Source of the DNA: Spirosoma fluviale
Lineage (GTDB): Bacteria; Bacteroidota; Bacteroidia; Cytophagales; Spirosomataceae
Assembly (NCBI RefSeq): GCF_900230225.1
Contig: NZ_OCNH01000001.1
Location: 372,001 to 436,000 of the forward strand
DNA: 64,000 bases
Direction of reading: 5' to 3'
Shown: in pieces, positions 7,530-36,261 of the stretch
How the letters are laid out: every line of letters starts with the position of its first letter
How positions within the stretch are numbered: the first letter of the stretch is position 1
The notes under the pieces: generated by a model
Database searches by the model: none
Told to the model about the DNA's origin: nothing
The model's input: the letters and a program-made list of their open reading frames with translations, nothing else
Position numbers and translations under genes: made by a program

Positions 7530-7539
7530 TAAGAGCAAT

Positions 7540-8403: not shown

Positions 8404-8509
8404 GGCCACTTATCCGGGCTATAAACCGACAAATCATTTTTCGTAAGGCTAAGGAATAGAAAGTGGTAATCTTGGCGGACAATCACCTATCACTTTCCCA
8501 TCTTCTCTT

Positions 8510-10609: not shown

Positions 10610-11809
10610 ATGAAAAAAAGTCTGTTACCTCTTGCCATTGGGGGCTTCGGTATCGGCATGACCGAGTTCGTCATCATGGGCATATTGCCCGATGTTGCCA
10701 GTTCCCTCCAAATCTCCATTCCTGTTGCTGGTCACCTCATCTCGTCCTATGCGCTGGGTGTCGTGCTGGGTGCTCCACTGCTGGTGGGCATTGCCGGGAA
10801 TTATCCGCCTAAGAAAATTCTGCTGGGCCTGATGGCCCTGTTTACGTTTTGTAATGCACTGTCGTCGTTTGCGCCTAATTACGAAATCATGATGATTACC
10901 CGGCTGTTGTCGGGCTTGCCGCATGGCGCGTTCTTTGGCGTTGGGGCTGTGGTGGCTAGTCGGTTGGCCGGTAAAGGAAAAGAGGCTCAGGCCATTTCCA
11001 TGATGTTTGCCGGACTTACCGTTGCCAACATCATTGGCGTCCCGCTGGGCACCTACATTGGTCATACCATGAGCTGGCGGATAACATTTATTATCATCGC
11101 CGTGGTGGGTCTGGCCACCATGTTCTGCATTCAGAAACTGTTGCCGGTAATGCCGGTGGTGGGGGAGTCCAGTCTACGAAAAGATCTGAAATTATTTACG
11201 CGGGTAGAACCCTGGCTTATTCTGGGTATTACGGCCATCGGTACGGGTGGTTTGTTCGCCTGGTTCAGCTATATCGCCCCGCTGCTGACCGAAGTCGCTC
11301 ATTTTGGGAGCAACCAGATTACGTGGATACTCATTCTGGCAGGTTTAGGTATGGCAACCGGTAACCTGATTTCTGGCCGTACCGCCGATCTGATCTCGCC
11401 TAGTAAGGCAACCGCCTTGTTTTTACTACTTATGACGGTAAGTCTGATCGGCGTTTATTTTGTGGCTGAGTATCAAATACCGCTATTGATTATGACCTTC
11501 ATTACCGGGGCTATTGCGTTCTCGCTGGGGGCGCCCATCCAGATTCTAATGATTCGGGCGGCCAACGGCTCCGAAATGCTGGCTTCGTCGGTAAGTCAGG
11601 CCGGGTTTAACATGGGCAACGCGTTGGGTGCTTACCTGGGCGGATTGCCCATTGCCGCTGGTCTGGGTTATGCCTCGCCCGAGTGGGTGGGTGCAGCACT
11701 GGCATTTGCCGGTTTTCTGCTGGCTATGGTCGTCTACTTCCGGCAGCGAGAAAAAGGCGTCAAAGATCCCGAAGAAGTTTCCAGCTACGAACTGGTGGCT
11801 GGGCATTAG
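10610..11809 (+). CDS. MFS transporter, AraJ/sugar-drug efflux type
   Basis: A 399-residue protein with twelve predicted membrane helices in two six-helix halves separated by a polar loop around residues 180-200. The start MKKSLLPLAIGGFGIGMTEFVIMGILPDVA is typical of AraJ/YdhP-like major facilitator efflux proteins, with the conserved GMTEF segment in helix 1, the helix 2 exit region (GNYPPKKILLG) and RLLSGLPHGAFFGVGAVVA in helix 4. It should be a proton-driven exporter in the inner membrane; the substrate (sugar, amino acid or drug) cannot be read. The ATG at 10610 fits the family N-terminus. Confidence 0.93.
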   Translation: MKKSLLPLAIGGFGIGMTEFVIMGILPDVASSLQISIPVAGHLISSYALGVVLGAPLLVGIAGNYPPKKILLGLMALFTFCNALSSFAPNYEIMMITRLLSGLPHGAFFGVGAVVASRLAGKGKEAQAISMMFAGLTVANIIGVPLGTYIGHTMSWRITFIIIAVVGLATMFCIQKLLPVMPVVGESSLRKDLKLFTRVEPWLILGITAIGTGGLFAWFSYIAPLLTEVAHFGSNQITWILILAGLGMATGNLISGRTADLISPSKATALFLLLMTVSLIGVYFVAEYQIPLLIMTFITGAIAFSLGAPIQILMIRAANGSEMLASSVSQAGFNMGNALGAYLGGLPIAAGLGYASPEWVGAALAFAGFLLAMVVYFRQREKGVKDPEEVSSYELVAGH

Positions 11810-11899
11810 GAGAGTTAGTGGAGTAGTGGAATGAGTGAAGTGGGTGGAGTAAGTGAAGTAAGTTCAGCTCATTTCACCTACTCCACTAACTCCACCACA
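11809..11899. repeat. Imperfect inverted repeat rich in GTGGAGTTAGTGGAG motifs
   Basis: The left side (11809-11836) and the right side (about 11868-11899) are imperfect reverse complements of about 28 bp; the shared core is TTAGTGGAGTAG. The left side also repeats GTGGAGTA-like units. It separates the MFS gene from the SPFH gene and is non-coding in my reading, although a frame open through it would extend the SPFH protein N-terminally. Confidence 0.55.
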
Positions 11900-11932
11900 T
11901 ACCACTTTAACAATTTATTACCTTCCTTATCA

Positions 11933-11968
11933 ACGGATTCCGTACTTTACGCGGAATCCGTTTTTTGT
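11933..11968 (+). terminator. Rho-independent terminator after the MFS gene
   Basis: A perfect 10-bp stem (ACGGATTCCG, 11933-11942, with 11952-11961) is followed by TTTTTTGTT. It lies between the MFS stop and the SPFH start, so the SPFH gene should have its own promoter or rely on read-through. It also argues against the longer SPFH start at 11831. Confidence 0.8.
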
Positions 11969-11986
11969 TACAAACCAATTGACCTT

Positions 11987-12952
11987 ATGAATTTTTTATT
12001 ACTGCTCTTGGGGCTAGCGATAGTCCTTATCTTTCTCTCGGTTGTCATTGTCCAACAGGGTACAGTTGCCGTCATCACGGTATTTGGTAAGTACGCCCGC
12101 GTTCTCCGGCCGGGGCTAAACTTCAAGATTCCCTTCATCGAAGTTATTTACCGACGGATTTCGATTCAGAACCGCTCCGTCGAACTGGCGTTTCAGGCCA
12201 TCACGGCCGATCAGGCCAATGTCAATTTCAAAGCCATGCTGGTGTATTCGGTGCTGAATCAGGAAGAAGAGACCGTTAAAAATGTGGCGTTCAAGTTCAT
12301 CGACGAAGCCTCCTTCATGCAGGCATTGATTCGAACCATCGAAGGGTCTATTCGTAGCTTTGTAGCCACCAAACGACAGTCCGAAATCCTGGCTCTCCGC
12401 TCCGAAATCATCGAACACGTCAAATCACAACTCGATACGCTGCTCGAAAGCTGGGGCTATCACCTTACCGATTTGCAACTTAACGACATCGCTTTCGATG
12501 AGGTCATTATGCGCTCGATGGCGCAGGTGGTGGCGTCGTCGAACCTGAAAGCGGCTGCCGAAAACGAAGGCCAGGCGCTGCTAATCACCAAAACTAAAGC
12601 TGCCGAAGCCGAAGGAAACGCCATTCAGATTTCGGCCGAAGCCGAGAAAAAAGCGTCGCAGCTGCGCGGGCAGGGCGTGGCGTTGTTCCGGGAGGAAGTC
12701 GCCAAGGGTATGGCTGAATCGGCCAAGGTTATGAACGAAGCCAAGCTGGATGCTTCGCTGATTCTGTTCTCCATCTGGACCGAAGCGATCAAGCATTTTG
12801 CCGAGAACGGGCAGGGAAATATTATTTTCCTCGATGGCTCGACCGATGGCATGGATAAAACGATGAAGCAATTACTGGCTGTTCAAACACTGAACAGCAG
12901 CATCGAGTCGAGCGGTATAATTACCCCGCCACCGATATCCGGTAAACGGTAG
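11987..12952 (+). CDS. SPFH/Band 7 (stomatin/prohibitin-like) membrane protein
   Basis: From the ATG at 11987 the protein is 321 residues: one N-terminal membrane helix (FLLLLLGLAIVLIFLSVVIV), the SPFH domain (about 23-200; GTVAVITVFGKYARVLRPGLNFKIPF and SIQNRSVELAFQAITADQ), then an Ala/Glu-rich coiled coil (about 200-265; AAENEGQALLITKTKAAEAEGNAIQISAEAEKK split by short turns). SPFH proteins form large oligomeric cages at membrane microdomains and often recruit proteases. A longer frame from 11831 reads through an inverted repeat and a terminator and is rejected. There is no partner NfeD-like gene next to it. The family is secure. Confidence 0.92.
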   Translation: MNFLLLLLGLAIVLIFLSVVIVQQGTVAVITVFGKYARVLRPGLNFKIPFIEVIYRRISIQNRSVELAFQAITADQANVNFKAMLVYSVLNQEEETVKNVAFKFIDEASFMQALIRTIEGSIRSFVATKRQSEILALRSEIIEHVKSQLDTLLESWGYHLTDLQLNDIAFDEVIMRSMAQVVASSNLKAAAENEGQALLITKTKAAEAEGNAIQISAEAEKKASQLRGQGVALFREEVAKGMAESAKVMNEAKLDASLILFSIWTEAIKHFAENGQGNIIFLDGSTDGMDKTMKQLLAVQTLNSSIESSGIITPPPISGKR

Positions 12953-13029
12953 GTGAGTAAAATTCGAAAAAATATTGGGAACGTTACGACTTTCATTTGT
13001 TGATTCTATCAAACCTGATTCACGCACAA

Positions 13030-13758
13030 ATGACAAACCTGCTTTTTCCTACCGATTTTTCGAATTATACATCAGCCGCTTTAGATTGGGTTCGCCTGTT
13101 TGCCCGTAAAACGGGGGCTACCGTCACGCTGTTGCATATGTACCAGCCCATGTTGCCCGATACCACGCTGCCAACCGTTGGCGATCCGGGTCTGGGCGTA
13201 ATGGCATCCATGGAAATTGAGAATATTAGCCGGAAGCGGCTCGATGAACTTGCCACCCAGCTTCAGGCCGAGGGGTTATCTGTAACGGTTGAATGGCGTA
13301 TTGGTGCAGTCGACGATGGCATACTGGATGTGGCCCGCGAACGCTCTGCCGATCTGATCATCATGGGGCGCAGCGACCTGAGCACGTTCTTCGACCGTTT
13401 GGCAGGTAGTGCCGTGACGGATGTTGCCGATGAAGCCGTCTGTCCGGTGCTGATTGTACCCACCACGCCCGAAGGGCAGTCCATTCGTCCGGCGCAGGTG
13501 CATACCATCGCGTATGCCATGCAGGCGCAAACGACACAATCCATCGTAACGGCCCAGACAGAATCGCTGGTCGATGCGTTCGATGCGAAGCTGGAAGTGC
13601 TGACGGAAGACAAACTCGAACACACCCACGCCGACCTGATCGTTATGCAGCTATCGCCCAAGGCCGGTTTTCTGGACAATCTGTTTCACCCGAATCACAC
13701 GACGGCCCTGATTACGAAGTCCGATGTGCCCGTGCTGGTGTATCACGAGAAGAAGTAG
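13030..13758 (+). CDS. Tandem universal stress protein (UspA family)
   Basis: From the ATG at 13030 the protein is 242 residues. The first UspA domain (about 1-148) starts NLLFPTDFSNYTSAALDWV and ends with the nucleotide-binding loop GRSDLSTFFDRLAGSAVTDVADEAVCPVLIVP (a GxxG-like loop with Ser/Thr). The second (about 150-242) is shorter and lacks a clear ATP loop; it ends ITKSDVPVLVYHEKK. Bacteroidota commonly carry such two-domain Usp proteins. They are cytoplasmic and act in stress responses by unclear means. An upstream TTG at 12997 would add 11 residues but is less likely. A strong shared terminator follows. Confidence 0.9.
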   Translation: MTNLLFPTDFSNYTSAALDWVRLFARKTGATVTLLHMYQPMLPDTTLPTVGDPGLGVMASMEIENISRKRLDELATQLQAEGLSVTVEWRIGAVDDGILDVARERSADLIIMGRSDLSTFFDRLAGSAVTDVADEAVCPVLIVPTTPEGQSIRPAQVHTIAYAMQAQTTQSIVTAQTESLVDAFDAKLEVLTEDKLEHTHADLIVMQLSPKAGFLDNLFHPNHTTALITKSDVPVLVYHEKK

Positions 13759-13799
13759 CCTTCGTTGTTTAGCGATAGCGACTAAGGATAATTTCAAAA

Positions 13800-13846
13800 C
13801 AGTAAGAACCCAAATCCATTGTCTGGATTTGGGTTCTTACTGTTTA
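13800..13846. terminator. Strong bidirectional terminator
   Basis: A perfect 19-bp stem (13800-13818 with 13824-13842; CAGTAAGAACCCAAATCCA type) with a 5-nt loop lies between the converging Usp and DUF1684 genes. It is preceded by AAAA on the minus exit and followed by TTTAT on the plus exit. Confidence 0.8.
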
Positions 13847-13943
13847 TACGATTGATTTCTTGCCTCAAAAAACCATTGTTCACGTTGGTTTATTTAAACT
13901 ATTGCTCTTAAAGCTTGAGAGTCGGTGTGTTCCGATTGCCCGG

Positions 13944-14819
13944 TTAATGATCGCCGTACCGCTTTTCACCCGCCGGGATGGCTACTGCCAGTCGGTTGTC
14001 TTTGGGGGGCGTGGGGCAGGTAGCGTAGGGCGTGAACGCACAGGGTGGATTGGTAGCTTTATTGAAATCAAGGTAGGTATACCCTTCTGCATCAGGGCCG
14101 GGAGCATCTAAAAACCGGCCACCGCCATAGGTATCGTGCTTATTGGTCTGATCGGCAAAAACGAAGTGCAGATGCTTGAGGGTTCCGGTCGCGTCGAGCC
14201 CATATTCTTTCCCATTTACCGTAAACAGCAACCGCCCCGGCGACTCCTGATCACTTACCCGCCCCGTTATATCGGTAATCGAAATTTTTTTGCCCGGCGT
14301 TGGGACAAACTTCGCTTTCAGGCGCCAGTTGGTACTGATCGGATAGGTGTCGATCCCCTTAAACTCTTTTACTGAGGGACTTTCCAGATCACGGAGCCGG
14401 ATGGCATATTTGTCGCCCCGCTGAATCACGAACCACCGCAGCGACTTGTGTCGCAGTACGATCGGTTTAGTGGTGTACGGGAAGATGTCGAGTTTCGTAA
14501 CTAGCGTATCGCCTTCGAAAACCTGAGCATCGGGCGTGGTTTCGACCGTTACCCGGCCGTTTTTCAGGACAATTTTACCCAGTTGCGCATTGCTGTGGTC
14601 GGCCGGGAACACAATGATATTTTTATCACTCCCGCCAAAGGTATTGACCCCTTCGTTCAGCCAGAACAAACCGGCCAGATTCAGCCAGCCATCTTCTTTT
14701 TTCAGGGCTTCTTCGCGTTGCTGGTGCCATTGCCGGATTTCCTCTTCGTACGATAGATCGGTTGTGAAGGCCAGCAGCAGGAGTGGCAGTAAGAGCAGCC
14801 AGTTGGTTTGTTTTTTCAT
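13944..14819 (-). CDS. DUF1684 family secreted protein
   Basis: A 291-residue protein with a hydrophobic signal (WLLLLPLLLLAFTTD) followed by the DUF1684 domain. Diagnostic pieces are EIRQWHQQREEALKKEDGWLNLAGLFWL near the N-terminus and, at the C-terminus, GGGRFLDA with LDFNKATNPPCAF and TPYATCPTPPKDNRLAVAI. The Cys-containing NPPCAFTPYATCP segment is the hallmark of the family. Function is unknown. It lies 33 nt after the TPR gene in the same direction and is the last gene of the SusC-SusD-TPR unit, so it may act on the imported compound. Confidence 0.88.
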   Translation of the reverse strand: MKKQTNWLLLLPLLLLAFTTDLSYEEEIRQWHQQREEALKKEDGWLNLAGLFWLNEGVNTFGGSDKNIIVFPADHSNAQLGKIVLKNGRVTVETTPDAQVFEGDTLVTKLDIFPYTTKPIVLRHKSLRWFVIQRGDKYAIRLRDLESPSVKEFKGIDTYPISTNWRLKAKFVPTPGKKISITDITGRVSDQESPGRLLFTVNGKEYGLDATGTLKHLHFVFADQTNKHDTYGGGRFLDAPGPDAEGYTYLDFNKATNPPCAFTPYATCPTPPKDNRLAVAIPAGEKRYGDH

Positions 14820-14852
14820 GGTTAAAAGCGATTTGAGTTGATAAATAATTGA

Positions 14853-16574
14853 TTATAAAGGAAATAGCGACTGGTCGCCAAACGCTGCCGTGTGCTTCAG
14901 ATGGGTAGCATATTCGTTGGCTTTGGCACTGTCGCCGTTTTGGTTATGGACTTTGTAAAGCCCCCAGTAAGCGTTGGCCGAGTTGGGGTGCCGTTCCAAT
15001 AGTTGCGTGTACGCAGTAATGGCTTTGTCATACTGCTTTGCTTTCAGATGTACTTCGGCCAGGCTGATCAAAACGGGGCGGGCATAGGAGGGGGGCTCAC
15101 TATACCCTAGGTCATCTTCTTTCTTTCTGGCATTCTCCAGCAAAGCAACAGCCTCTTTGTATTTATTCTCAGCGCTTTTGATAACACCCTGTAACTCCCG
15201 CGAGGCCACATTCAGGTCGTTGAGCCGACGAACGGTAATCACGTCGGTGGGCGTGAGCTGGTTCGCGTTGCGCCAGAGCGATGCATCGAGGGCATCGGCA
15301 AATCGACGGGCTTCGTCGAGCCGGTTATTTTTTGCCGCATCCATGCCCGATGCAAAATAATACAACCCGTCTTTGTAGGCCATCGCTTTGGTGGAGTAGA
15401 GGCTGTCTTTGTCGAGTTTGATGGCTGCCAACCGGTCGGCGGCTTTCCGGTAAAAGCCGAAGCACAGTTCCATTTTAGCGGGCGCAATAATGCCCTGGTA
15501 GAAAAAACGCCCCTCGTATTTCTGCTTCCGCTCTTTGGTGGCGGGCATATTTTTCAATTTCTCCGCGTAATGGAGCGCCGTTGCATAACGCCCGTCTTCG
15601 GCGCAGTTGGCCAGCAGGTAATTGATGTTGTGGATGTAGTTCCAGGCATCAACCTCGGGGATGTGCTGGGTTTTCATGTAGGCCGAATCTGCCGCCAGCG
15701 AAGCGGCAAAGGCATCGTACGCCATTTTGTAATCGCCTATTTTGTAATAAATGTGGCCCGGCATGTGGACCATATGGCCCGATGCGGGGGCTAGTTTCGG
15801 CAACAGGACGGCACTTTCAACGGCCTGCTCGGCGCAGCAGTTTTCCATCAGGTGTATCCAGTAATGGTGAACGGCCGCGTTGTTGGGATGCGTTTTCAGT
15901 AAATCGCGGAGTAGGTATTCGGCGTAGAGCTGCCCCTCTCTCGGGTTCATGTCCGTGTCGTAGCCACCCATTTTACTCAGGGCCAGAAACAGCTTCGCAT
16001 CCACATCGTCGGGGTATTTGTGAACAATGATCTCCAGCTTTTTCTGGTATTCCCGTTTGCCATTTTCTGCGTCGGTATCGCGGGCCAGAATCCCGTCGGC
16101 ATAAAGTTTTTCGTGTTCCGATGCCGACCCTTTCAGGGCTTTGAGTTTGTTGACGGCCAGCTTTTTGTCGGCGGTAAAGTCGGTGCCTTCAATGGCTCCA
16201 ATGGCGCTGTACAGGCCCCAGTAGGGCATAATGGCCGTGGAGTCGTGCCGGATGGCTTCTTTAAAGGCGCGGTAGGCTTCGAAATCCCAGAAACAATGCA
16301 GCAGCGCAACCCCCTGGCTATAGAAAAATTGCGTCTGCTGCGATTTGGTACTTATTTTCAGGTCTGACGTGCCAATGCCGCTCAGCCGTTCCGGGGCGGG
16401 CAGATTGTGTACGAATACCGTCTCTTTGCGGTAATCCTGAATATGAGCCAGGTGGCTATGGTTGAGGTCGTGGCTGTCTCCGTCGTGTACATCGTGCTGG
16501 TGCTCGGCCTGGCGAACCCGCTGGCCTACAGCTCCGTATGTGAGCAGACAGAAGAGGAGAAGATAAACGTTCAT
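14853..16574 (-). CDS. Periplasmic TPR repeat protein with His-rich N-terminus
   Basis: The 573-residue protein starts with a signal peptide (MNVYLLLFCLLTYGAVGQ) followed by a His/Asp-rich stretch (HQHDVHDGDSHDLNHSHLAH) that could bind metal. The rest is helical with TPR-like repeats, from FWDFEAYRAFKEAIRHDSTAIMPYWG to YDKAITAYTQLLERHPNSANAYWGLYKVH at the C-terminus. It starts 6 nt after the SusD stop and ends 33 nt before the DUF1684 gene, so it belongs to that operon. TPR proteins scaffold other proteins; the exact role is unknown. The family resembles periplasmic TPR proteins often annotated only as tetratricopeptide proteins. Confidence 0.85.
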   Translation of the reverse strand: MNVYLLLFCLLTYGAVGQRVRQAEHQHDVHDGDSHDLNHSHLAHIQDYRKETVFVHNLPAPERLSGIGTSDLKISTKSQQTQFFYSQGVALLHCFWDFEAYRAFKEAIRHDSTAIMPYWGLYSAIGAIEGTDFTADKKLAVNKLKALKGSASEHEKLYADGILARDTDAENGKREYQKKLEIIVHKYPDDVDAKLFLALSKMGGYDTDMNPREGQLYAEYLLRDLLKTHPNNAAVHHYWIHLMENCCAEQAVESAVLLPKLAPASGHMVHMPGHIYYKIGDYKMAYDAFAASLAADSAYMKTQHIPEVDAWNYIHNINYLLANCAEDGRYATALHYAEKLKNMPATKERKQKYEGRFFYQGIIAPAKMELCFGFYRKAADRLAAIKLDKDSLYSTKAMAYKDGLYYFASGMDAAKNNRLDEARRFADALDASLWRNANQLTPTDVITVRRLNDLNVASRELQGVIKSAENKYKEAVALLENARKKEDDLGYSEPPSYARPVLISLAEVHLKAKQYDKAITAYTQLLERHPNSANAYWGLYKVHNQNGDSAKANEYATHLKHTAAFGDQSLFPL

Positions 16575-26632: not shown

Positions 26633-26838
26633 TGTCGTTGTTGTTCTGGTTGTGATGTCGATGCCCCGGTTCGTTTACTTAGACAAAGGTCGCTCGAAAA
26701 GCCGCCCGGATAAACCCGATTCTTGCGGAGTTTTAGGCGCGAAACAGGCTGTCGGTTAATGCAGGCGATTCGGTATCTTTGATAAAAATTGGGAACTTGC
26801 TGCCTGATCGTTTACCATCGGCAGATCCACATCTACGT

Positions 26839-29800
26839 ATGAAAAAAGGGTTACTGCTCTGCTTGTTTCTAGTCAATGCACTGGTGCTGAATGGACAAAG
26901 TCGATTCGGGAATGAATGGATACGGCCGGGTCAGAAGTACCTCAAATTTACCGTGAATCAGGCGGGTATTTACCGGGTTGGGTACGAGGATATTAAAGCG
27001 GCTGATGCGTCTTTTTTGCAAACCAACCCCGCCAGCTGGCAACTGTTTTTCAGGGGGCAAGAGGTTGCCATTCGGGTAGCTGGACAACAGGATGGCGTTT
27101 TTGATGCCCAGGATTATGTTGAGTTCTACGGAATTGGTAACGATGGGGCATTGGATTCGCTGGTCTATCGTCCACAAAAGCGACTCCATCCCTACCAGAC
27201 GCTCTTTTCCGACAAAACGGCTTTCTTCCTGACCACTAACCCGACGCTGACCGGCAAACGAATGCCCGAACTAAAGCCGTCGGCGCAGGGGTTAACGCCC
27301 GAGCCGTTTCATGTTGAAGAGACCGTTCAGGCGTTCACGAGCGAGTACACGTTCAACAACCTGAAAGGACTGGAACCGTACTTGCAGCAAAGCTATTTTG
27401 AGCCGGGCGAGGGTTGGTCCGGCCGCCAGCTTACCGCCGATTCAGTTGGGGTTGTCCAACTGAAACTGCCGGGCCGAACGTCGGCAAATTGGCCCGTTAC
27501 GCTGGAAGGCATGGTCAACGGGCGCGACAATTCGTACCACCAACTTCAGCTTCAACTCGACGCCACTACCACCGCACCCCTGGCCGTAGAGCCCTTTAAT
27601 GGATTTTCAAGCCAGACATTCCAGTCCACGATTACGCCCACAACGATTCAGAATGACCAGCTTACCCTACGCTTCCGGGTCGAAAAAAGCGGCTTTACCA
27701 CCAATTATTCAATTACGTATGTCAAGGTAACGTATCCGCAGGCGCTGGATATGTTTGGGCAAACCACTAAGGTATTTCGTATTCCCGCCAACGCCCGTCT
27801 GGCCGCGCAGCTGGCGGTCAAAAACGTGCCAGCTGCATCGCTGGCGTACGATATCACCGACATGGCCAACATCCGGCTACTGACCACCCAAACCACCGGC
27901 GATCAAACGCAGCTTGTGGTAAACGAGACCGCACAGAGCCGGGCCGTGTTGATCACCAATAAGATCAATAAACCGCTGGCTATCCAGCCAATCCGGTTTG
28001 AGACGATGGTGCCCAAAACGGCAGACTACGTTATTGTCACGCACGCATCGCTCCGGCAGTCGGCTGCTACGTATGCCGGTTACCGGTCGTCGGTGGCGGG
28101 TGGGAGTTATAAGCCATTTATTGTCGAGTCCGATTCCCTGTACGACCAGTTCAATTATGGCGAGAAAAGCCCGTTGGCACTTCGACGTTTTGCCGATTAT
28201 CTGGTGGCGAATACGGCCGTTAAAAACCTGCTGCTCCTGGGCCGGGCAAATAGTTACCCGTATACCACCAAAACGGCCACCGATGATTTAGTCCCGACAA
28301 TGGGCTACCCCGGTTCCGATATTCTACTCTCGGCCGGACTGGCGGGCTTTCCGCCGAATACCCCGGCCATCCCGACCGGACGCATCAACGCGACCACCAA
28401 CGAGCAGGTGCTTACCTATCTCGACAAAGTGAAGCAGATGGAAAGCGCCACCTATAACGGAATTTGGCGGAAACACATCGTTCACATCAGCGGGGGCAAG
28501 TCGGCGGGTGAAGTAGCCAGTCTGCGGGAAGCCCTCAATGGCGTTGGTCGTATCTATACCAACGGCCTGTTAGGCGGGCAGGTGACGGCCTTCAGTAAGA
28601 ACACCACCGCCGAAGTGGAGCAGATCAACATTGCTCCGCTGGTCAACGACGGCGTTAGTCTGGTAACGTTTTTTGGCCATGCCGGACCGGCCATCACCGA
28701 CATGAATTTCGGGTTTGCCTCTCCACCCGAAAACGGGTTCCGCAATCAATATTACCCGTTCATGATCTTCAACGGCTGTGGTGTCGGCGAAATCTTTTCC
28801 AGCTTCAAAACCCTGTCGACAGATTGGCTGCTGGCTCCCCAAAAGGGCGCGGGTATGGTGCTGGCGCACTCCTACTACAGTTATGAACAGCCCACAACGC
28901 GGTACCTGAACCGGCTCTATACCAGCTTGTACGCCGATGCCAGCACATTGGGGTTACCCTTTGGCAAGGTACAGCAGCAGGTTAACCTGGCGCTGGAAAA
29001 AGAAGGTGTGGATGGGTACGACATTTCCGTGATCCTGCAAATGCTCCTGCAGGGCGACCCCGCCCTGAGTCTGTACCCGCTACCAAACCCTGACTTTTCT
29101 GTCGAGGCAAAGGGCATGTACATTCAGGGGAAAGTAGTGGGTAGTTCGCTTCAGAACAGCGATTCGCTGCGCGTCGTCGTTCCGGTAACGAACCTTGGCA
29201 AGTTCGTGGCCGGACAGTCGGTTGCGGTAGCGTTGACAAAAACGAGTAACGGCAGTGCAGCCACTACTACGCTCCGGTTTCCGGCATTTCGGTACCGCGA
29301 CACGCTGGTATACACGTTCGCCAAAGACGATAGGCTACAGAAGCTGGAGGTGACGATTGATCCCGAGAATCAGCTTGTCGAGTTAAATAAATCGAATAAT
29401 AAAGCCAGTCTGGACATCGACTGGGCCCAGGCGAAGACAAGCACCAGTTACCCGCCTAATCGATTCCCTGATCGCGTCGATCCGGAAATCAGCGTATTTC
29501 TGGACGGGAGAGTCAGGGAGAATAAAGCCATTGTTGGCGTAAACCCACGCCTGGAGGTGTTTATTCTCGATGAAAACCCGCTCTCTTCAGGTGATACAAG
29601 TGCCGTTGAGGTCTACCTGAAAAGTTGCGCCAGTTGTTCGCCCAACAAACTGCCGTCGACTCAGTTCACCGTATCGTCGGTTTCGGCCAACCAGCTTCGG
29701 GTAGCGGCAACCGTAGCGCTTCAGGCGGGGGGGAGCTATCAACTTATTGTTTTCGGGAAAGATGCCGCCGGGAATCGTACGCAGTCGCCCTACGTCCTCG

Positions 29801-30099
29801 ATATTGGCGTTGTGGCCAAGGATGAGCCCGTTACCGTAATGGCCTACCCAAACCCGGCGACTTCCTACGTGAAGTTTGACCTGAATCTGAATCTGACCGA
29901 ATTGCCCACCGAATCCCGGCTGTTAATTTATAACCAGTCGGGTGTGCTGGTGTATGCCGATACCCTGTTGGTAACCACCGGCAAAAACACCTGGTTGTGG
30001 CAGGGAACCGCAGCGGGCATTTACCCGTATTCGTTTCGGTTAACGTACAAAGACGGCCGCACCGAAACCCATACCGGCAAGGTGGTCTGGCAGCATTAA
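26839..30099 (+). CDS. Gingipain-family (C25) cysteine peptidase with T9SS C-terminal sorting domain
   Basis: From the ATG at 26839 (MKKGLLLCLFLVNALVLNGQ signal peptide) the protein is 1086 residues. An N-terminal beta region is followed by the C25 catalytic domain (about 395-760), with the His motif VTFFGHAGP (His614) and the Cys motif MIFNGCGVGEIF (Cys647). A beta-sandwich region (PVTNLGKFVAG, NQLVELNKSNNKASLDI; CARDB-like) comes next, and the C-terminus (about 1000-1086; AYPNPATSYVKFDL ... GIYPYSFRLTYKDG) is a type A T9SS sorting domain. It should be secreted across the outer membrane. The T9SS sortase PorU belongs to the same family; I cannot decide whether this is PorU or another C25 peptidase. 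Its stop overlaps the next, converging gene by 4 nt. Confidence 0.88.
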   Translation: MKKGLLLCLFLVNALVLNGQSRFGNEWIRPGQKYLKFTVNQAGIYRVGYEDIKAADASFLQTNPASWQLFFRGQEVAIRVAGQQDGVFDAQDYVEFYGIGNDGALDSLVYRPQKRLHPYQTLFSDKTAFFLTTNPTLTGKRMPELKPSAQGLTPEPFHVEETVQAFTSEYTFNNLKGLEPYLQQSYFEPGEGWSGRQLTADSVGVVQLKLPGRTSANWPVTLEGMVNGRDNSYHQLQLQLDATTTAPLAVEPFNGFSSQTFQSTITPTTIQNDQLTLRFRVEKSGFTTNYSITYVKVTYPQALDMFGQTTKVFRIPANARLAAQLAVKNVPAASLAYDITDMANIRLLTTQTTGDQTQLVVNETAQSRAVLITNKINKPLAIQPIRFETMVPKTADYVIVTHASLRQSAATYAGYRSSVAGGSYKPFIVESDSLYDQFNYGEKSPLALRRFADYLVANTAVKNLLLLGRANSYPYTTKTATDDLVPTMGYPGSDILLSAGLAGFPPNTPAIPTGRINATTNEQVLTYLDKVKQMESATYNGIWRKHIVHISGGKSAGEVASLREALNGVGRIYTNGLLGGQVTAFSKNTTAEVEQINIAPLVNDGVSLVTFFGHAGPAITDMNFGFASPPENGFRNQYYPFMIFNGCGVGEIFSSFKTLSTDWLLAPQKGAGMVLAHSYYSYEQPTTRYLNRLYTSLYADASTLGLPFGKVQQQVNLALEKEGVDGYDISVILQMLLQGDPALSLYPLPNPDFSVEAKGMYIQGKVVGSSLQNSDSLRVVVPVTNLGKFVAGQSVAVALTKTSNGSAATTTLRFPAFRYRDTLVYTFAKDDRLQKLEVTIDPENQLVELNKSNNKASLDIDWAQAKTSTSYPPNRFPDRVDPEISVFLDGRVRENKAIVGVNPRLEVFILDENPLSSGDTSAVEVYLKSCASCSPNKLPSTQFTVSSVSANQLRVAATVALQAGGSYQLIVFGKDAAGNRTQSPYVLDIGVVAKDEPVTVMAYPNPATSYVKFDLNLNLTELPTESRLLIYNQSGVLVYADTLLVTTGKNTWLWQGTAAGIYPYSFRLTYKDGRTETHTGKVVWQH

Positions 30100-30797
30100 G
30101 GTAGTCGATTGCTGGACAGTAACGTCCATTTCTGGCGGCTTCCCGATGTAATAGTCCCCTTGCCAATACAGTCGGGTGTGGACTGGCAGTAGGCGAGAGC
30201 GGTATTTTCTCGGTAAACTAGCCCCACGTTTGGTGCGTACATTCGAACGTATTTATTTAGTCCGATCAGCGTCGAGTCGTTCGGACCTACTACGGAAACG
30301 ACGTTGTCGAACGACCGTTTATTCAGCGTAATGGATTGGCTGCCGGTTTGATAGCGAAGGAGTGTATCCGGGCGGGCGTTGTAGGTGTTCACATTCCAGC
30401 TGGTAGCCGCCGAAATTGGGAAAGTCAGACTCACCGTTGGGACATTGTTTTCCTGGCTGACAACTTCCGAAAGCGTTCTGTAAACGGTCCAAATGGCGTT
30501 TACTTTCCAGTCGGACTGTTCCGAATTTCTGGCCGATTCTTCGACCTGATACACCAGTTGACCATTGCGGCTGAATGAACTACTAATTTTCTGCTGAACC
30601 TGAAACGCCCGCGTTGTGGCCGGGCTCGTGATTGAATATGTTTCCTGGGTAACCTGATAAATCCAGTAATCGCCCGTTTGCAGCGGGAAATAGGCCGAAT
30701 CGTCCGGGAGTAAGTCAGTTTCGGGCTGGCAACCTCCCAGCAGATTGAGTACAATCAGGAAAACAAGAGAGGTATATAGTCGGCGAATTTTCAGCAT
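30096..30797 (-). CDS. Lipoprotein of unknown function
   Basis: A 233-residue protein with signal and lipobox (LIVLNLLGGCQPE, Cys23). After a short linker, the domain starts YFPLQTGDYWIYQVTQETY, a beginning seen in many Bacteroidota lipoproteins annotated only as hypothetical. The rest is predicted beta-rich, with two Cys near the C-terminus (YCQSTPDCIG) that could form a disulfide. Its stop codon overlaps that of the converging C25 peptidase gene by 4 nt. No function can be assigned. Confidence 0.78.
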   Translation of the reverse strand: MLKIRRLYTSLVFLIVLNLLGGCQPETDLLPDDSAYFPLQTGDYWIYQVTQETYSITSPATTRAFQVQQKISSSFSRNGQLVYQVEESARNSEQSDWKVNAIWTVYRTLSEVVSQENNVPTVSLTFPISAATSWNVNTYNARPDTLLRYQTGSQSITLNKRSFDNVVSVVGPNDSTLIGLNKYVRMYAPNVGLVYRENTALAYCQSTPDCIGKGTITSGSRQKWTLLSSNRLP

Positions 30798-30961: not shown

Positions 30962-32905
30962 ATGGGCGGAATTGCGGGAATGATTCGATTTGATGGGCAA
31001 CAGGTAACCGACATAGATCGAAGCCGGATAACTGAGTTGCTCAAGCACCGGGGCCAGGTTGCCAGTCAGGTAGTAGAGGGAGGGTTGCTGCTGGCGTTCG
31101 GTGCTAAGCTCGATACTGCCGGTTCGACGTATGCAACCGCCGATGTAGACGCCCACAGCGGATCATTCAACTCTTCGCTTCTGGAAACGTATAGGCAGTC
31201 CGGTTCCCGTTCGTTCAACGACCTGACGGCCGATTTTGCCCTGGCTATCTGGGACCAACCCCGGCAAACGCTCGTCTTCGCCCGCGACATCATGGGCGTA
31301 AAACCGTTGTATTACGTCCATCAGCCCGGTCGCTTTGCCGCCTTTGCGTCCGAAATAAAAGCGTTGCTGGCCCTGAAGGAAGTAACCATCCGACCGAATG
31401 AACATAAATTTCGGGAGTACCTGACCTGGACCACTGAGTATGTCCCCTACGGCGCTGAAACTTTTTATGAGGGTATTTTTAGCGTGTTGCCCGGTCATTC
31501 TGTTGAGGTGAATGCCCGGAGCGTCGATGTGCGACCCTACTGGAAAATTGACCTAAACCGGTTTGCGAATTTGTCCCGTGCCGACGAGTATTCAGCCTTA
31601 TTTCAAACTGGTTTTACGGAGTCCGTTAACCGACGGATGGCCGGTAAGAAACTCGTTGGAGCGCACTTGAGCGGAGGACTCGATTCATCGTCGGTGAGTT
31701 GCGTGGCGCAGGCTTTGCTACAACAACAGCAACGCCCGGCCCTGCATACCTTCAACATCGACACCGAACAACCCGCTGCCGATGAGCAGGTTTTTGTGCA
31801 GGCCGTAATTGACCAATGGCATCCTCACCACCACACGGTTCATCCCGTACCTGATGTGCTGGAATCGGTGCAGAAAATCAGTCAGTTATTCGACCGACCG
31901 GAGCATTTTATTATCCCATCCAGCTTTCACCTGAGTGTGTCGCTGGCTACGCAGCAGATCGGCTGCGATAGCCTGCTAACCGGTCACGACGGCGATAGTG
32001 TTGTAACAACGGGTTTTGACTTTCTGGAGCAGCTCGTAGATGCCGCCGACTGGGTGAATCTAAAAACGGCTTGTCGGCAGGTGATTGGCTTGCCAGGCCG
32101 CACTCTGACGCACATTGATGCAAATTGGGCGAACTTATCCGAGCAGGTAAAATTTGAGCGATACGCGCTGGCCGTCATTGGAAGCAACCTGAAAAAACGG
32201 TTTCGGGAGGAGTCGATTCCTAGCTTTCTAACCGTGTTTCGGGCGCAAAAGGCCGCACTTGGGCTGTCGTCGTCGGCCTTTATCACACACCTGTCGAAGC
32301 GATTGCTGATCCGACTGAAGGCAACGGCACCGCTTGCCAGCCCACTAAGTGATGCATTCAATCTTAGGGTGCCGCTTCGGGCGCAGCAAACCACGGAGGG
32401 GCTGGCGGCTAGTCGGGTGGGGGGCCAGCAGATGCCACTCAACCAGGTGGTAAACACGACCAACATCATTTGTAACGAGCAAATGAACCACATTGGCGAA
32501 TACTACGGGCATAGCTATTCGTTTCCTTTCTTCGACAAAAATGTTATTGAGTTGTGCCTGGCAACCCCCCTTTCGGTCCACTTCGACCAGGGGCGGGGGA
32601 GGGGACTCATTCGGAATGGCTTAGCAACTGTGTTGCCACCTGCCGTTGCCAACCGACTCACCAAAGCCAATTTTGTGGAATACAGCACACTCTCCGCTCA
32701 GCAACTTCATCAGGCCACCCGTGCGCTTTTTTCGTCGCCTACCCATGCCATCTGGACGGTGGTTGATCCGGAAAAGTTTGCTCAGCTTGTGAAAACAGTC
32801 TTCGATGAGCAAGTGCCCGTGATTCGAAAGTCCCGCTTCAACTGGATGTTGTGCCGGGTTATTTACCTGGCACTGTGGCTGGACACCTTGCCCCAAACGC
32901 CCTGA
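30962..32905 (+). CDS. Lasso peptide cyclase-like asparagine synthetase homolog (C protein), glutaminase-dead
   Basis: A 647-residue asparagine synthetase homolog. The N-terminal class II glutamine amidotransferase-like domain (1-190) starts MGGIAGMIRFDGQ: the catalytic Cys2 of true AsnB is Gly, so ammonia release from glutamine should not occur. The synthetase domain has an intact ATP pyrophosphatase loop, LSGGLDSSSVS (Ser237-Ser243), and FPFFDKNVIELCLATP near residue 525. This is what is expected of lasso cyclases, which adenylate an Asp/Glu side chain and join it to the peptide N-terminus. It converges on the nucleotidyltransferase-B2-PqqD genes with a 6-nt gap, and the precursor lies at 35035-35175. 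The role is inferred from this context. Confidence 0.85.
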   Translation: MGGIAGMIRFDGQQVTDIDRSRITELLKHRGQVASQVVEGGLLLAFGAKLDTAGSTYATADVDAHSGSFNSSLLETYRQSGSRSFNDLTADFALAIWDQPRQTLVFARDIMGVKPLYYVHQPGRFAAFASEIKALLALKEVTIRPNEHKFREYLTWTTEYVPYGAETFYEGIFSVLPGHSVEVNARSVDVRPYWKIDLNRFANLSRADEYSALFQTGFTESVNRRMAGKKLVGAHLSGGLDSSSVSCVAQALLQQQQRPALHTFNIDTEQPAADEQVFVQAVIDQWHPHHHTVHPVPDVLESVQKISQLFDRPEHFIIPSSFHLSVSLATQQIGCDSLLTGHDGDSVVTTGFDFLEQLVDAADWVNLKTACRQVIGLPGRTLTHIDANWANLSEQVKFERYALAVIGSNLKKRFREESIPSFLTVFRAQKAALGLSSSAFITHLSKRLLIRLKATAPLASPLSDAFNLRVPLRAQQTTEGLAASRVGGQQMPLNQVVNTTNIICNEQMNHIGEYYGHSYSFPFFDKNVIELCLATPLSVHFDQGRGRGLIRNGLATVLPPAVANRLTKANFVEYSTLSAQQLHQATRALFSSPTHAIWTVVDPEKFAQLVKTVFDEQVPVIRKSRFNWMLCRVIYLALWLDTLPQTP

Positions 32906-32911
32906 AATCGG

Positions 32912-34084
32912 CTAGCGACGCGTTGGTAAAAAGCGCGTCAGGGACTGGCCCGCACGAACGAACAGGGTGATAAGTCCCAGTTCTTTGGGTACGTAAACAA
33001 ACCGGTTTCCAACTTTGAAAATGCTGTACCTGAAAATTCGACTACTCAGAAACGTACCGCAAACGGTTAGCTGTTTGCCTATTCGCGTCTGAGCATTCAG
33101 CAGCAGGGTTGCCTGTTTAACGATCAATTTACTGTATTTGCTGGGTTCGTCGGCTTCCCAGTTTTCAGCGTACCGATCGGCTAACGAGCGAAGCCGGGAC
33201 GAATTTACCAGCGACTCAACGGCCTTCGGAAGGGGTAACTCCCAAATGTGTACGCACCAGTACAGGCCTGCCAGAAAGACCTCCTCAATCCCGTATCGGC
33301 GCAGTTCCTCAAGCAGCCAGTTCCAGTTGATATCCCGATTATGGAGTGAGAAGTACAAATCGTTTATGTAGTAAAGCTGCTGCCAGACATTGTTGACGCC
33401 ATGATGAACGATCAGAAGAACAATCTCCCGTTCGGCAGAAACGTTTGGTTGCGCACGAACGTAATTCAGGTCGAAGCGGGCGTAATGCCGGTTAAAGCAC
33501 AGGATTTGCCAGTGCAGGTCAATATCAAAATGGCTGTTGTTAAAGAACGGCTTGAATAAACTGACTTCATGTAAATCGTCCAGAATTACCTCTTCGCCCT
33601 GTTGCCAGTGAAGTCGTTGCTGATTATTTAATTCATAATCATTGGCTTGTAACAGGCGAATAGCCCTGAACCCATCGTCCCGTCGAACCAGTATGTCAAT
33701 ATCGCCACTAATGCGTAGGCTACTGTCCGGATAGAAATGTTCGGCCAGGTACACACCTTTAAGGGGCAGATGGTCGATGTTATTTTCGGTTAGCAGAGCC
33801 GCCAGCTGGTGGTAGTGGTGCAGTTTCAGCAGGTTATCCGTGGCCGCTGTTCGGCATTCTTCCTGAAGCGTACGGATAAATGACGCCGGAACAGCCGGAA
33901 TCTGGTAAAGCGAACGGTATAAAAACGGGGTGAGCCGATGCCGAACGGCCAGGGTATACACGCGATCCCAGTTGACGGCATGCTGACCCAGAAAATCAGT
34001 CAACCTGTTCTGTTTCTCAGGTGACAGCGAAACAGAACAGGCCATCAACAGTAACTTAACTTCGGGCGAAAAACTAACCACCAT
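32912..34084 (-). CDS. Nucleotidyltransferase-family protein (PF14907-like) of the lasso cluster
   Basis: A 390-residue protein resembling the uncharacterised nucleotidyltransferase family often found in RiPP clusters. The key segment (about residues 105-150) has LLTENNIDHLPLKGVYLAEHF and SLRISGDIDILVRRDD, where DIDILV supplies the DxD metal-binding pair of the NTase fold, followed by DIDLHWQILCF. In the paeninodin lasso cluster of Paenibacillus a gene of this type accompanies B1, B2 and a kinase. Here no kinase is nearby, so the modification, if any, is unknown. It lies 58 nt downstream of B2 in the same direction. Confidence 0.82.
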   Translation of the reverse strand: MVVSFSPEVKLLLMACSVSLSPEKQNRLTDFLGQHAVNWDRVYTLAVRHRLTPFLYRSLYQIPAVPASFIRTLQEECRTAATDNLLKLHHYHQLAALLTENNIDHLPLKGVYLAEHFYPDSSLRISGDIDILVRRDDGFRAIRLLQANDYELNNQQRLHWQQGEEVILDDLHEVSLFKPFFNNSHFDIDLHWQILCFNRHYARFDLNYVRAQPNVSAEREIVLLIVHHGVNNVWQQLYYINDLYFSLHNRDINWNWLLEELRRYGIEEVFLAGLYWCVHIWELPLPKAVESLVNSSRLRSLADRYAENWEADEPSKYSKLIVKQATLLLNAQTRIGKQLTVCGTFLSSRIFRYSIFKVGNRFVYVPKELGLITLFVRAGQSLTRFLPTRR

Positions 34085-34142
34085 GGAGAAACGGATGCGA
34101 ACGACTCGCGGAGAGATGTGAAAACGGATGCGCCATTGAAGC

Positions 34143-34580
34143 TTAATTCCAGTTCAAAATAGGTTTGAACACTTGGTTTAGCTGTTCGCCCAGAATCGTT
34201 TTGTCCTTATAGACGATCCAGGCATGAGCCGCAAATTGCTGGCTCTCCGTTTTCTGAACACCGATATAAATACGGATGGTCGGATGGTTTTTCAGCAGCC
34301 ATTTAGCACTAAGGGCCTGAACCAGGCAGGTGAACCCCAGCGGTAACCGGGCGCTAAGTACCTGAATGGCCCAGATTACCCGACGAAGTTTTTCTTCCGA
34401 AAGCGCTTCGCCAGCCTCAATCCGACTCCGGGAGCTTAGAAATGTGCGAAACGGAACAACCAGCAGCAAGCATTTATAGGCGAACAATACCGCAAAGACA
34501 CGTACTAAAAGTACCTTCTCCGACCAGCTTAACACGCTGAGTTTTGCCAGACTATACCTTTGTTTCGATAAGCTTTTCAC
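34143..34580 (-). CDS. Lasso peptide B2 leader peptidase (transglutaminase-like)
   Basis: A 145-residue protein of the lasso B2 family. An N-terminal hydrophobic stretch (VLLVRVFAVLFAYKCLLLVV) precedes the transglutaminase-like core, with Cys85 in LPLGFTCLVQALSAKWLL, His119 in AAHAWIVYKDK and a nearby Asp126, forming the cysteine-protease triad. It should cut the precursor leader after the conserved Thr-x pair. The frame begins at a GTG (34580) that lies inside the PqqD gene (29-nt overlap), so translational coupling is expected. The short length matches stand-alone B2 proteins. Confidence 0.9.
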   Translation of the reverse strand: MKSLSKQRYSLAKLSVLSWSEKVLLVRVFAVLFAYKCLLLVVPFRTFLSSRSRIEAGEALSEEKLRRVIWAIQVLSARLPLGFTCLVQALSAKWLLKNHPTIRIYIGVQKTESQQFAAHAWIVYKDKTILGEQLNQVFKPILNWN

Positions 34581-34839
34581 GGGATAGGGTATCTAGAAAC
34601 AACATCAACTCTTCCTGACACACAGATGGTTCTACATCAAATTCTGCCAAAAGTTCGTCCTGAATATCCTGAACCAGCATCGTTCTTTTTTCCTGCAACA
34701 GTGCCCAGATAAACCCGCCAACCTCATTCAACTCGTAATAATTACCCGCTTTATAGTCGAGGAGGATAGTTTCGTTGCCAATAACCGATGACGATTGATT
34801 GGAGACTAATTCGATGCGGGTGTTAAGCGTAATAGCCAT
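34552..34839 (-). CDS. PqqD-family protein (RiPP recognition element, lasso B1)
   Basis: From the ATG at 34839 the protein is 95 residues, a typical PqqD/RRE size. It has the winged-helix pattern: TILLDYKAGNYYELNEVGGFIWALLQEKRT (the beta hairpin and first helix, with the conserved LNEVGGFIW) and a C-terminal helix DVEPSVCQEELMLFLDTLSREKLIE. Such proteins bind the YxxP leader motif of lasso precursors and present it to B2. An alternative TTG start at 34845 adds two residues. It overlaps B2 by 29 nt and lies 195 nt downstream of the precursor, beyond a strong hairpin. Confidence 0.92.
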   Translation of the reverse strand: MAITLNTRIELVSNQSSSVIGNETILLDYKAGNYYELNEVGGFIWALLQEKRTMLVQDIQDELLAEFDVEPSVCQEELMLFLDTLSREKLIETKV

Positions 34840-34960
34840 GAACAAAGGTGGAAATAGACTGGAAGGTACTAAAAAGAGCTTGATTCACCAACTTAACATG
34901 CGCTAGCCGGGTAGTTGCTCCTACCCCCGCTGTAACAACAGAACCAACCCTGATTTAACA

Positions 34961-35001
34961 CAGTAGCCTGCTTTGCTCACCAAGAGCAAAGCAGGCTACT
35001 G
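34961..35001. terminator. Perfect 18-bp hairpin between lasso precursor and enzyme genes
   Basis: Arms 34961-34978 and 34984-35001 (CAGTAGCCTGCTTTGCTC type) are exact complements around a 5-nt loop. On the minus strand it follows the precursor stop by 33 nt and is not followed by a good T-run, so partial termination or transcript stabilisation is more likely than full termination. On the plus strand it is followed by ACTTTTT. Confidence 0.75.
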
Positions 35002-35034
35002 ACTTTTTAATTGCGACTGTCGGGAGGCTCGGTA

Positions 35035-35175
35035 TTAACCGAACGTACCAAAACCGTCGACGCTGGAGCCTGTTTTTAAGGTTATTTTTTTGACGTTACC
35101 CAGCGCCTTCAGTGTTGGAGTACGGTACGCTTTTTTACGCAGGGGAGTCGATATATCTTTTTTAGTCGATTTCAT
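35035..35175 (-). CDS. Lasso-type RiPP precursor peptide
   Basis: A 46-residue ORF (ATG at 35173-35175, TAA at 35035-35037). The leader carries Tyr17, Pro20, Leu22, Gly26 and Thr32, an exact match in order and spacing to the lasso leader motif YxxPxLxxxGxxxxxT. With Thr at -2, cleavage would fall after Leu33, leaving the 13-residue core KTGSSVDGFGTFG; Asp at core position 7 would close a seven-residue Lys1-Asp7 macrolactam ring with tail GFGTFG. Lys at position 1 is unusual, so cleavage one or more residues away cannot be excluded. It lies upstream of PqqD and B2 on the same strand and 42 nt downstream of a T9SS-exported protein gene. Confidence 0.85.
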   Translation of the reverse strand: MKSTKKDISTPLRKKAYRTPTLKALGNVKKITLKTGSSVDGFGTFG

Positions 35176-35217
35176 TGGTCGGGGTAATTAACGAGTTGAA
35201 TAATTAAAAGAAAGGGG

Positions 35218-36261
35218 TTATTCGACAACTACACGATGCGTACGCGTTTGGGCGCGTTCTTTAACGGTAATGAGGTAGATACCGGTTGTGAGTTTACGGG
35301 TTGACTTGAGCATAAGAAGACCCTCATCGGTACCTGTCTTTTGTATTGGAATCAACCGGCCATCCGAACTATACAAGGCTACTTCGGCTGTTTGAGGCTC
35401 ATCCAGACGTAACACAAACTTATTGTCGATAACTGGGTTTGGGAATATGCCGTACGAATCGCTGCGGAGTATCACCGAGGCTGTCCGAAGAAGAGCACTT
35501 GTGCCGTTTAGATCGGTTTGCTTCAGACGGTAATAGCTGGTGCCAAAATAAGGGTGTTCATCGACAAAATCATACGTATTTCCCTGAGTACCTTCTTTGG
35601 CTTTTACACGCCCAACGGTCTCGAATTGAACCAGGTCTTTGCTGCGTTCAACGACAAAGTAGTCGTTATCACGCTCCATAGAGGTAACCCAGTTGAGCTG
35701 TACCGCTTTGCCACTAACAGCCTTTGCCGTAAAGGCTGTCAAACTTACTGGTAATGGAGCGCATTGAGTACCCGCAAAAAACTCATACAACAGTCGTGTC
35801 TGGGTAGTCTGCGTATTTATATTGATGTACGTTACTTTAACACTCGTTATTGGCTGCGTAGACGTAAGTTCAAAGAAACTAAAACCACTGGCTGTCTTGG
35901 TCGTTACGGTGACGTTAGGCGATACGATCAACGTTGCGCCATTATACACGTCAATTGTTACACCGGCTAGATCGTTGGCCTTCAGATACAGCAACGTATT
36001 TGCCGGAACTGTCTCGTTCAACTCTGTGGTAATGGACATCGTAACAGACTGCCCAGGCGTGAGGGTGGATGTTAGAATCGCCGGTGTGTTAATATCCCCG
36101 TCAACAATATTGGCTGCATTATTCACTTGATTGGTACCAGTGCCATTACTATTGACGGACGTGCTGGCAGAGGTGTAATATTTTGTAGGGCACTGCGCAA
36201 AGCTACTTTGGTATGAGAAAAGTGCCAGGCAGGCAATCAAGCCATGTAAATATTTCTTCAT
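35218..36261 (-). CDS. T9SS-exported surface protein of unknown function
   Basis: A 347-residue protein: signal peptide (HGLIACLALFSYQSSFAQ), a beta-rich domain of about 145 residues with Thr/Asn/Val-rich strands, two Cys near each end of it (CPTKYY, TQCAP), then a fibronectin-like module common in Bacteroidota (PVSLTAFTAKAVSGKAVQLNW, NDYFVVERSKDLVQFETVG, YYRLKQTDLNG) and a C-terminal type A sorting domain (YGIFPNPVIDNKFVLRL ... GIYLITVKERAQTRTHRVVVE). It should be secreted and attached to the surface. It is directly upstream of the lasso precursor (42 nt) in the same direction, so it may share its transcript; a functional link is unproven. Confidence 0.87.
   Translation of the reverse strand: MKKYLHGLIACLALFSYQSSFAQCPTKYYTSASTSVNSNGTGTNQVNNAANIVDGDINTPAILTSTLTPGQSVTMSITTELNETVPANTLLYLKANDLAGVTIDVYNGATLIVSPNVTVTTKTASGFSFFELTSTQPITSVKVTYININTQTTQTRLLYEFFAGTQCAPLPVSLTAFTAKAVSGKAVQLNWVTSMERDNDYFVVERSKDLVQFETVGRVKAKEGTQGNTYDFVDEHPYFGTSYYRLKQTDLNGTSALLRTASVILRSDSYGIFPNPVIDNKFVLRLDEPQTAEVALYSSDGRLIPIQKTGTDEGLLMLKSTRKLTTGIYLITVKERAQTRTHRVVVE

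Follow-up and report, generated by a model that had tools for sequence, protein, structure and literature searches.

The window analyzed here, a stretch of 64,000 nucleotides from Spirosoma fluviale (contig NZ_OCNH01000001.1, positions 372,001 to 436,000 of the forward strand), can be read, with about even chances, as holding a maturation locus and one precursor gene for a family of lasso-type peptides devoted to a single branch of the type IX secretion system (T9SS). At the level of sequence, the partnership with the T9SS is strong. We moderately favor a role of the peptide in sorting or anchoring of its paired cargo proteins, by whatever mechanism, and regard it as the best explanation because of the pairing of precursors with a subfamily of sorting domains and because of the presence of a paralogue of the sortase-type protein PorU2. 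Most of what is known about lasso peptides concerns free antibiotics or signals. If true, the proposed role would thus be a new job for a ribosomally synthesized and post-translationally modified peptide (RiPP), with lasso enzymes harnessed to protein secretion, and would provide a handle on T9SS cargo treatment in Bacteroidota outside Porphyromonas. In the literature searched, in which subscription journals were thinly covered, neither a description of a link between lasso peptides or other RiPPs and the T9SS nor a paper on PorU2 was found, and for lasso peptides in Spirosoma only another peptide class was retrieved.

A preliminary description of this DNA, made from the letters alone, had placed one precursor beside its enzymes. 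Instead, the precursors turned out to form a dispersed family, with eight of them versus one gene for the leader peptidase B2 in the strain's own genome, so that this single B2 must serve all of them; genes for lasso precursors can be located a long way from those for the enzymes. Seven of the eight begin 33–59 bp behind a T9SS tail gene on the same strand, in a genome with 58 T9SS tails. For random placement, a rough model gives this pairing a p-value of 8e-24, or of about 1e-13 when the tandem array formed by four of the pairs on contig C8 is counted only once. Within this array (L065, G000:C8:1214000-1233900, positions 6836-15125 of the locus), the four precursors are near-identical, and the cargo fronts differ. 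The sorting domain of the window's own cargo, which belongs to T9SS type A, is above the cut-offs of its models (TIGR04183 with 39.6 bits, cut-off 23; PF18962 with 32.2 bits, cut-off 27), and about 180 C-terminal residues are common to the cargos, with an identity to the window cargo of 45–56% in 12 of 13 and of 32% in the remaining one. Among the fronts of ten cargos searched, two are ice-binding-like and two bear EPTP repeats with DUF6242 (over cut-off in one), matches to DUF5050 and others stayed under cut-off, and in the rest, including the window's cargo, the tail alone or nothing was matched. Since the fronts vary while the C-terminal module is constant, the peptide is apparently associated with the sorting module and not with one cargo function.

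The distribution of this module was followed with a profile made from 16 sorting domains of paired cargos, which gave 33 strong matches in 19 whole Spirosoma genomes (at least 95.9 bits; next match 46.6 bits). All 12 precursor-positive genomes possess such a domain, and none of the seven precursor-negative ones does (best match there 36.1 bits), i.e., in the tested Spirosoma genomes precursor and special sorting domain are present together and absent together. Directly behind 30 of the 33 domains, a precursor is encoded. A second sorting-domain type is found in Persicitalea, Rhabdobacter, Arundinibacter and two further genomes, with 13 strong matches (at least 117 bits; next 65.4 bits), all 13 of them followed by a precursor, although eight rows of the query come from the same places as these matches. 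This type occurs in five of six precursor-positive genomes (G131 being the positive genome devoid of a match) and in none of six precursor-negative ones. In both searches, pairing was judged by matching the positions of sorting domains and precursors by eye, and the query profiles were made from paired domains and may therefore miss weaker relatives. Forty signature tails had been fetched because of their precursors and were left out of the evidence.

The second line of evidence comes from genes beyond the range of the preliminary description, encoding PorU2 and a lipoprotein at 26779-30797 next to the cyclase gene, which we count as part of the system. In PorU2, the His/Cys dyad is present in all 85 aligned sequences, the window's included. 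For the loci around the best 80 of 457 named cyclase relatives (52 from Bacteroidota and 28 from cyanobacteria), both PorU2 and the lipoprotein were found at 37 of the 52 Bacteroidota and at 0 of the 28 cyanobacterial loci, in several gene orders. A trivial link was considered, as the PorU2 model is matched in 219 of 222 genomes of the family, but the phylogeny and the copy numbers argue otherwise. In a FastTree analysis of the 85 PorU2 sequences, 18 of 19 from other genome places form one fully supported clade apart from nearly all PorU2 of lasso-type loci, the latter not being one clade (sequences counted as linked are those from loci retrieved on account of a precursor, B2 or cyclase, and a few of these loci had no detected cyclase). 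At least three matches to the PorU2 model are present in each of 27 precursor-positive Spirosoma genomes versus two in seven of nine precursor-negative ones, with three and one in the remaining two. In Dyadobacter, a tandem PorU2 pair lies beside the cyclase gene in 13 loci (L249, L251, L255, L258, L261, L264, L266, L276, L283, L290, L297, L299, and L300), and the second PorU2 of these pairs has its own clade in the tree. Members of the lipoprotein family occur widely, in 324 of 390 genomes of the order sample, and among the Spirosoma genomes of that sample at least two copies were counted in 10 of 12 precursor-positive genomes (one each in G189 and G194) and one in all six negative genomes. 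The AlphaFold2 model of the window's lipoprotein (predicted local distance difference test score of 90.2) weakly resembles proteins of the YmcC/LolA type (best E-value 3.4e-5; template modeling scores of 0.36–0.41 for the top three), while a profile search against the PDB gave three weak matches (E-values of 0.12–0.3) and no Pfam family was found among the 30 homologues searched.

The precursor itself is a 46-codon open reading frame (ORF) whose position and neighboring genes agree with the preliminary description. The lasso leader spacing proposed there, YxxPxLxxxGxxxxxTx, was confirmed by aligning 25 selected precursors, with Y17, P20, G26, and T32 as well as L33, K34, G36, S37, and D40 being invariant and position 22 occupied by L, I, V or M. 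Scores narrowly below the cut-offs of both NCBIfam lasso precursor models (25.2 versus 33 bits and 17.7 versus 19 bits) bear out that such an ORF could well be missed. A lack of homologous precursors in relatives had been named as a finding that would speak against the locus; they were found, however, in 30 of 36 Spirosoma genomes (E-value up to 1) and in 110 of 222 genomes of the wider family (E-value up to 0.1), eight of which have only weak best matches (E-values of 0.02–0.08) that may be due to chance. In the order sample, 46 of 390 genomes possess precursors, all within one family, and related named loci include those of Dyadobacter, Runella, Arundinibacter, Persicitalea, Rhabdobacter, Fibrisoma, Lacihabitans, and Emticicia. 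Among 15 precursors, 64% of the codon differences are synonymous (1079 of 1678 over 24 codons, counted for all pairs, which are not independent), versus about 26% for random point changes, and K1, G3, S4, and D7 of the core are encoded by varied codons, with the residues kept. Judged from its codons, this is a genuine, conserved lasso-type precursor under purifying selection and not a chance ORF, because the differences are mostly synonymous and the four core residues are held despite codon variation. Two deviating copies were noticed: in L081 (9988-10254, G213), the frame extends beyond the usual core to 88 residues and may represent an altered or decayed precursor, and in L069 (9906-10064, G190:C1:4361205), the leader Gly is replaced and an ORF that is transposase-like by eye lies upstream, possibly indicating a decayed or moved copy.

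The 13-residue core with Lys1 and Asp7 suggested previously is supported as a prediction, with K1 and an acidic residue at position 7 in 78 of 103 distinct cores. In these, numbering was anchored on the Thr at position –2, two further peptides that did not parse were left out, and the collection had used profiles built on K1-D7 types. The other cores combine G1 (16 cores), A1 (four) or D1 (one) with an acidic residue at position 8, or L1 or E1 with one at position 9 (three), one being a misfit at position 10; hence, position 7, 8 or 9 is acidic in 102 of the 103, and position 8 or 9 in 24 of the 25 that are not of the K1/acidic-7 type. A macrolactam is probably formed, while the Lys1-Asp7 lactam and the threading of its tail are predictions from sequence; the cyclized predicted core would show an [M+H]+ of 1241.580, and its linear form one of 1259.590. 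The seven-residue ring, which looked unusual in the preliminary description, is not new, as rings of seven, eight or nine residues are listed among described lasso peptides in the accessible part of PMC13352647. Each of the 65 cores that have a tail protein encoded no more than 400 bp away begins with K1. Dyadobacter cores of the GKLGSxxD8 type start with Gly yet retain a Lys six residues ahead of the ring Asp. Cores with G1 or A1, Asp8 and no Lys close to where the ring starts were noted in Runella (L192 7630-7800, L219 11570-11797, L168 3938-4105, and L170 3998-4165), those of L192 and L219 adjoining PorU2 and lipoprotein genes.

Features of the lasso-type locus and its neighborhood (positions refer to the window; aa, amino acids).
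Feature	Position	Strand	Evidence or remark
PorU2, gingipain-fold T9SS sortase-type protein	26779..30099	+	NF052324, 1003.2 bits (cut-off 450)
Lipoprotein, 233 aa	30096..30797	-	predicted half-barrel, weakly like LolA/YmcC
C, Asn-synthase-type lasso cyclase	30962..32905	+	NF033535 (best model); PF00733
NTP_transf_5 nucleotidyltransferase, possible tailoring enzyme	32912..34084	-	PF14907, 5.2e-41
B2, leader peptidase, transglutaminase-like	34143..34580	-	NF033537, PF13471
B1, PqqD-type RiPP recognition protein	34552..34845	-	PF05402
Hairpin, terminator-like	34961..35001	-	perfect 18-bp stem; -35.1 kcal/mol, z -8.7
Lasso-type precursor, 46 aa	35035..35175	-	conserved leader motif
Predicted core of precursor	35038..35076	-	KTGSSVDGFGTFG
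Predicted leader of precursor	35077..35175	-	
T9SS cargo, 347 aa	35218..36261	-	TIGR04183; 42 bp from cargo stop to precursor ATG
Sorting domain of cargo	35221..35457	-	
Constant C-terminal module of cargo	about 35221..35760	-	

The assignment of B1, with its RiPP recognition element, and B2 as maturation proteins stands, with B2 above the cut-off of NF033537 (74.9 versus 33 bits) and carrying the motifs TCLVQA and AHAW, and B1 above that of PF05402 (65.7 versus 23.4 bits; E-value 4.9e-18), although below that of the lasso-specific NF033536 (66.1 versus 80 bits). For cyclase C, NF033535 is the best NCBIfam model at a score under its cut-off (325.7 versus 525 bits), and PF00733 is exceeded (115 versus 21 bits); the protein starts with MGGIAG, having Gly at position 2 and thus lacking the Cys2 that is a feature of glutamine-hydrolyzing Asn synthases, and keeps the ATP loop SGGLDSS. 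An asparagine synthetase homolog following the precursor, as previously described, is indeed present, but its gene lies on the plus strand, convergent, and so not in the same operon. The precursor as member of a B1-B2 operon was likewise set aside, owing to the intervening hairpin; since this splits it from B1, the precursor seems to form a unit with the cargo gene at 35218-36261, in which it comes second. A perfect stem of at least 8 bp was found 3' of five of 17 precursors examined. The NTP_transf_5 gene occurs near 18 of the 52 Bacteroidota cyclase loci and in many Spirosoma loci it adjoins B2; proteins of this kind in other lasso clusters are associated with tailoring. A regular-expression scan of 30 B2 loci, mostly from Dyadobacter, gave three matches, none of them precursor-like, and the Dyadobacter precursors were found adjoining the cyclase and lipoprotein genes, away from B1/B2.

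For the sorting or anchoring role, we propose the following sequence of steps. B1 and B2 would cut the leader off after the residue following Thr(–2), and C would link the Asp7 side chain to the amino group of residue 1. The resulting macrolactam of 13 residues, be it a lasso or unthreaded, would have the side chain of its lysine free. PorU2 might then, at the surface of the cell, cleave the special sorting domain off the cargo and take the peptide as acceptor or anchor by way of the peptide's conserved Lys, possibly with the lipoprotein as carrier, these latter steps being the least certain. The free lysine as acceptor is speculation by analogy with PorU of P. gingivalis, which the accessible part of PMC7468200 implicates as a sortase conjugating the new C terminus of cargo to anionic lipopolysaccharide (A-LPS). 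Covalent attachment via Lys is a tentative proposal that we consider less likely than not, and slightly more doubtful still is the complete scheme, in which each cargo of the T9SS branch comes with a peptide copy of its own, the macrocyclic lasso-type peptide is the sortase acceptor or anchor, and a dedicated PorU2 joins the peptide lysine to the C terminus newly formed on the cargo. We know of no other case of surface anchoring by a sortase onto a ribosomal macrocyclic peptide.

Several observations weigh against the view that the peptide is devoted to a single T9SS branch. Pairs with the special domain account for just 30 of the 50 precursors in the 12 positive Spirosoma genomes, where the others follow weaker tails or none, and pairs with the second domain type for 13 of 27 in its six positive genomes (both totals taken per genome from the family-wide precursor search). 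Over all fetched loci, a tail protein within 400 bp was found for 65 of 111 distinct precursor peptides, a count with a tail model from one genome and some loci ending early, and for 21 of 47 in the named Bacteroidota loci. Dyadobacter precursors follow the lipoprotein gene and not T9SS cargo. In the strain's own genome, the eighth precursor (C13:319942) is without a T9SS partner, and of the seven paired cargos one carries a tail of another type. Three of the 33 special domains are not followed by a precursor (G188:C1:1720312, G196:C1:817572, and G216:C36:364785; none at E-values up to 1 within 5.5 kb), and the Spirosoma genome G200 has B2 but no detected precursor (G200:C1:416659-417033, L101; a special sorting domain is likewise absent). 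PorU2 is missing from 14 of the 52 Bacteroidota cyclase loci, G199 has three PorU2-model matches and yet no precursors, and all such copy counts are approximate because the model probably also matches PorU. Runella cores of the G1/A1-D8 types without Lys near the ring share the neighborhood of PorU2 and lipoprotein, so that the Lys acceptor cannot be general and was rejected as a rule. Moreover, no ORF with both nucleotide-binding motifs of an ATP-binding cassette (ABC) transporter was found in 27 maturation loci including the window, which leaves export unexplained; elsewhere, the same pattern gave seven matches, four of which resemble FtsE on visual inspection and are located some 8 kb from Dyadobacter B1/B2. 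As transporter D is only "sometimes present" in lasso clusters according to the accessible part of PMC12670498, its absence does not exclude lasso membership.

The Lys-less cores accompanying PorU2 and lipoprotein would be more easily accommodated if the matured peptide remained unattached and regulated the branch, as an inhibitor, pro-peptide-like partner or chaperone made in step with the cargo and directed at the PorU2 paralogue or the special sorting domain. Operon pairing, special sorting domain and PorU2 paralogue fit such regulation nearly as well, and LolA-type folds carry hydrophobic ligands, although the fold match of the lipoprotein is weak; the Lys in all 65 T9SS-paired cores, however, is left unexplained, and we regard regulation as unlikely. 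Less likely again appears a lasso peptide of the usual secreted kind (bacteriocin or signal), merely sharing promoters with expressed surface proteins. Lasso-type machinery, leader motif and the ring spacing of 7, 8 or 9 are all in line with it, lasso peptides are typically antibacterial, and many precursors are without special cargo, but the cores are conserved across genera and paralogues, unlike those of a diversifying bacteriocin, the partners are discrete sorting-domain subfamilies absent from the precursor-negative genomes tested, and the 27 loci show no transporter pattern near the enzymes. Very improbable is an inherited synteny without function, in which precursor, cyclase, PorU2, and cargo merely co-travel by descent. 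The confinement of the precursor-positive order genomes to a single family would suit it; on the other hand, gene order is reshuffled with the members still together, pairs recur at several sites per genome, and the special sorting domain is absent where precursors are absent.

A separate doubt concerns the chemistry and is compatible with the T9SS role, so that its chances do not compete with those above: the product might be an unthreaded macrolactam or other amide, or be formed with an amine other than that of residue 1, and thus be lasso-like in its genes only, to which we assign a minor share of the probability. With 13 residues, the core leaves a tail of six and lies at the bottom of the range of 13–33 residues given for lasso cores in the accessible part of PMC13352647, the best lasso model for C is matched at a score under its cut-off, and Lys is not among the observed first residues named, as examples and not exhaustively, in the accessible part of PMC12670498. 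Against this, the ring spacing obeys the lasso rule across genera, with residue 1 shifting with ring size (K1-D7, G1/A1-D8), and C lacks Cys2 while its ATP loop is kept.

Compared with known systems, the T9SS of P. gingivalis shares the gingipain-family protein and the cargo C-terminal domains, which in the accessible part of PMC7468200 are cut off, the new C terminus being conjugated to A-LPS as acceptor, whereas the present system has a PorU2 paralogue together with a special sorting domain, and the cargo gene is followed by one for a peptide. Metanodin, as far as covered by the accessible part of PMC12670498, likewise has an unusual first ring residue deduced from the Thr two positions upstream and a precursor lacking annotation (by antiSMASH in its case), but it is a gammaproteobacterial peptide with Asn1 that was produced and is supported by mass spectrometry. 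Cyanobacterial lasso-type clusters are close in that NF033528 (precursor, 25.2 bits, below cut-off) and NF033535 (cyclase) are the best-scoring models; nevertheless, all 28 cyanobacterial cyclase loci are without PorU2, lipoprotein and T9SS tail, and their cores differ from those described here. With lasso peptides of the split B1/B2 plus C type, the system has in common the T(–2) leader motif, a PqqD-type B1, the B2 peptidase, the Asn-synthase cyclase, and an acidic residue at position 7, 8 or 9, and it deviates from them by dispersed and often T9SS-paired precursors, Lys1, the conserved core, the lack of a transporter found near the enzymes, and PorU2 plus lipoprotein beside the cyclase. Among these peptides, we know of no T9SS context for the xanthomonins, whose ring is closed between Gly1 and Glu7 versus the predicted Lys1-Asp7 lactam here, comprising seven residues in both cases.

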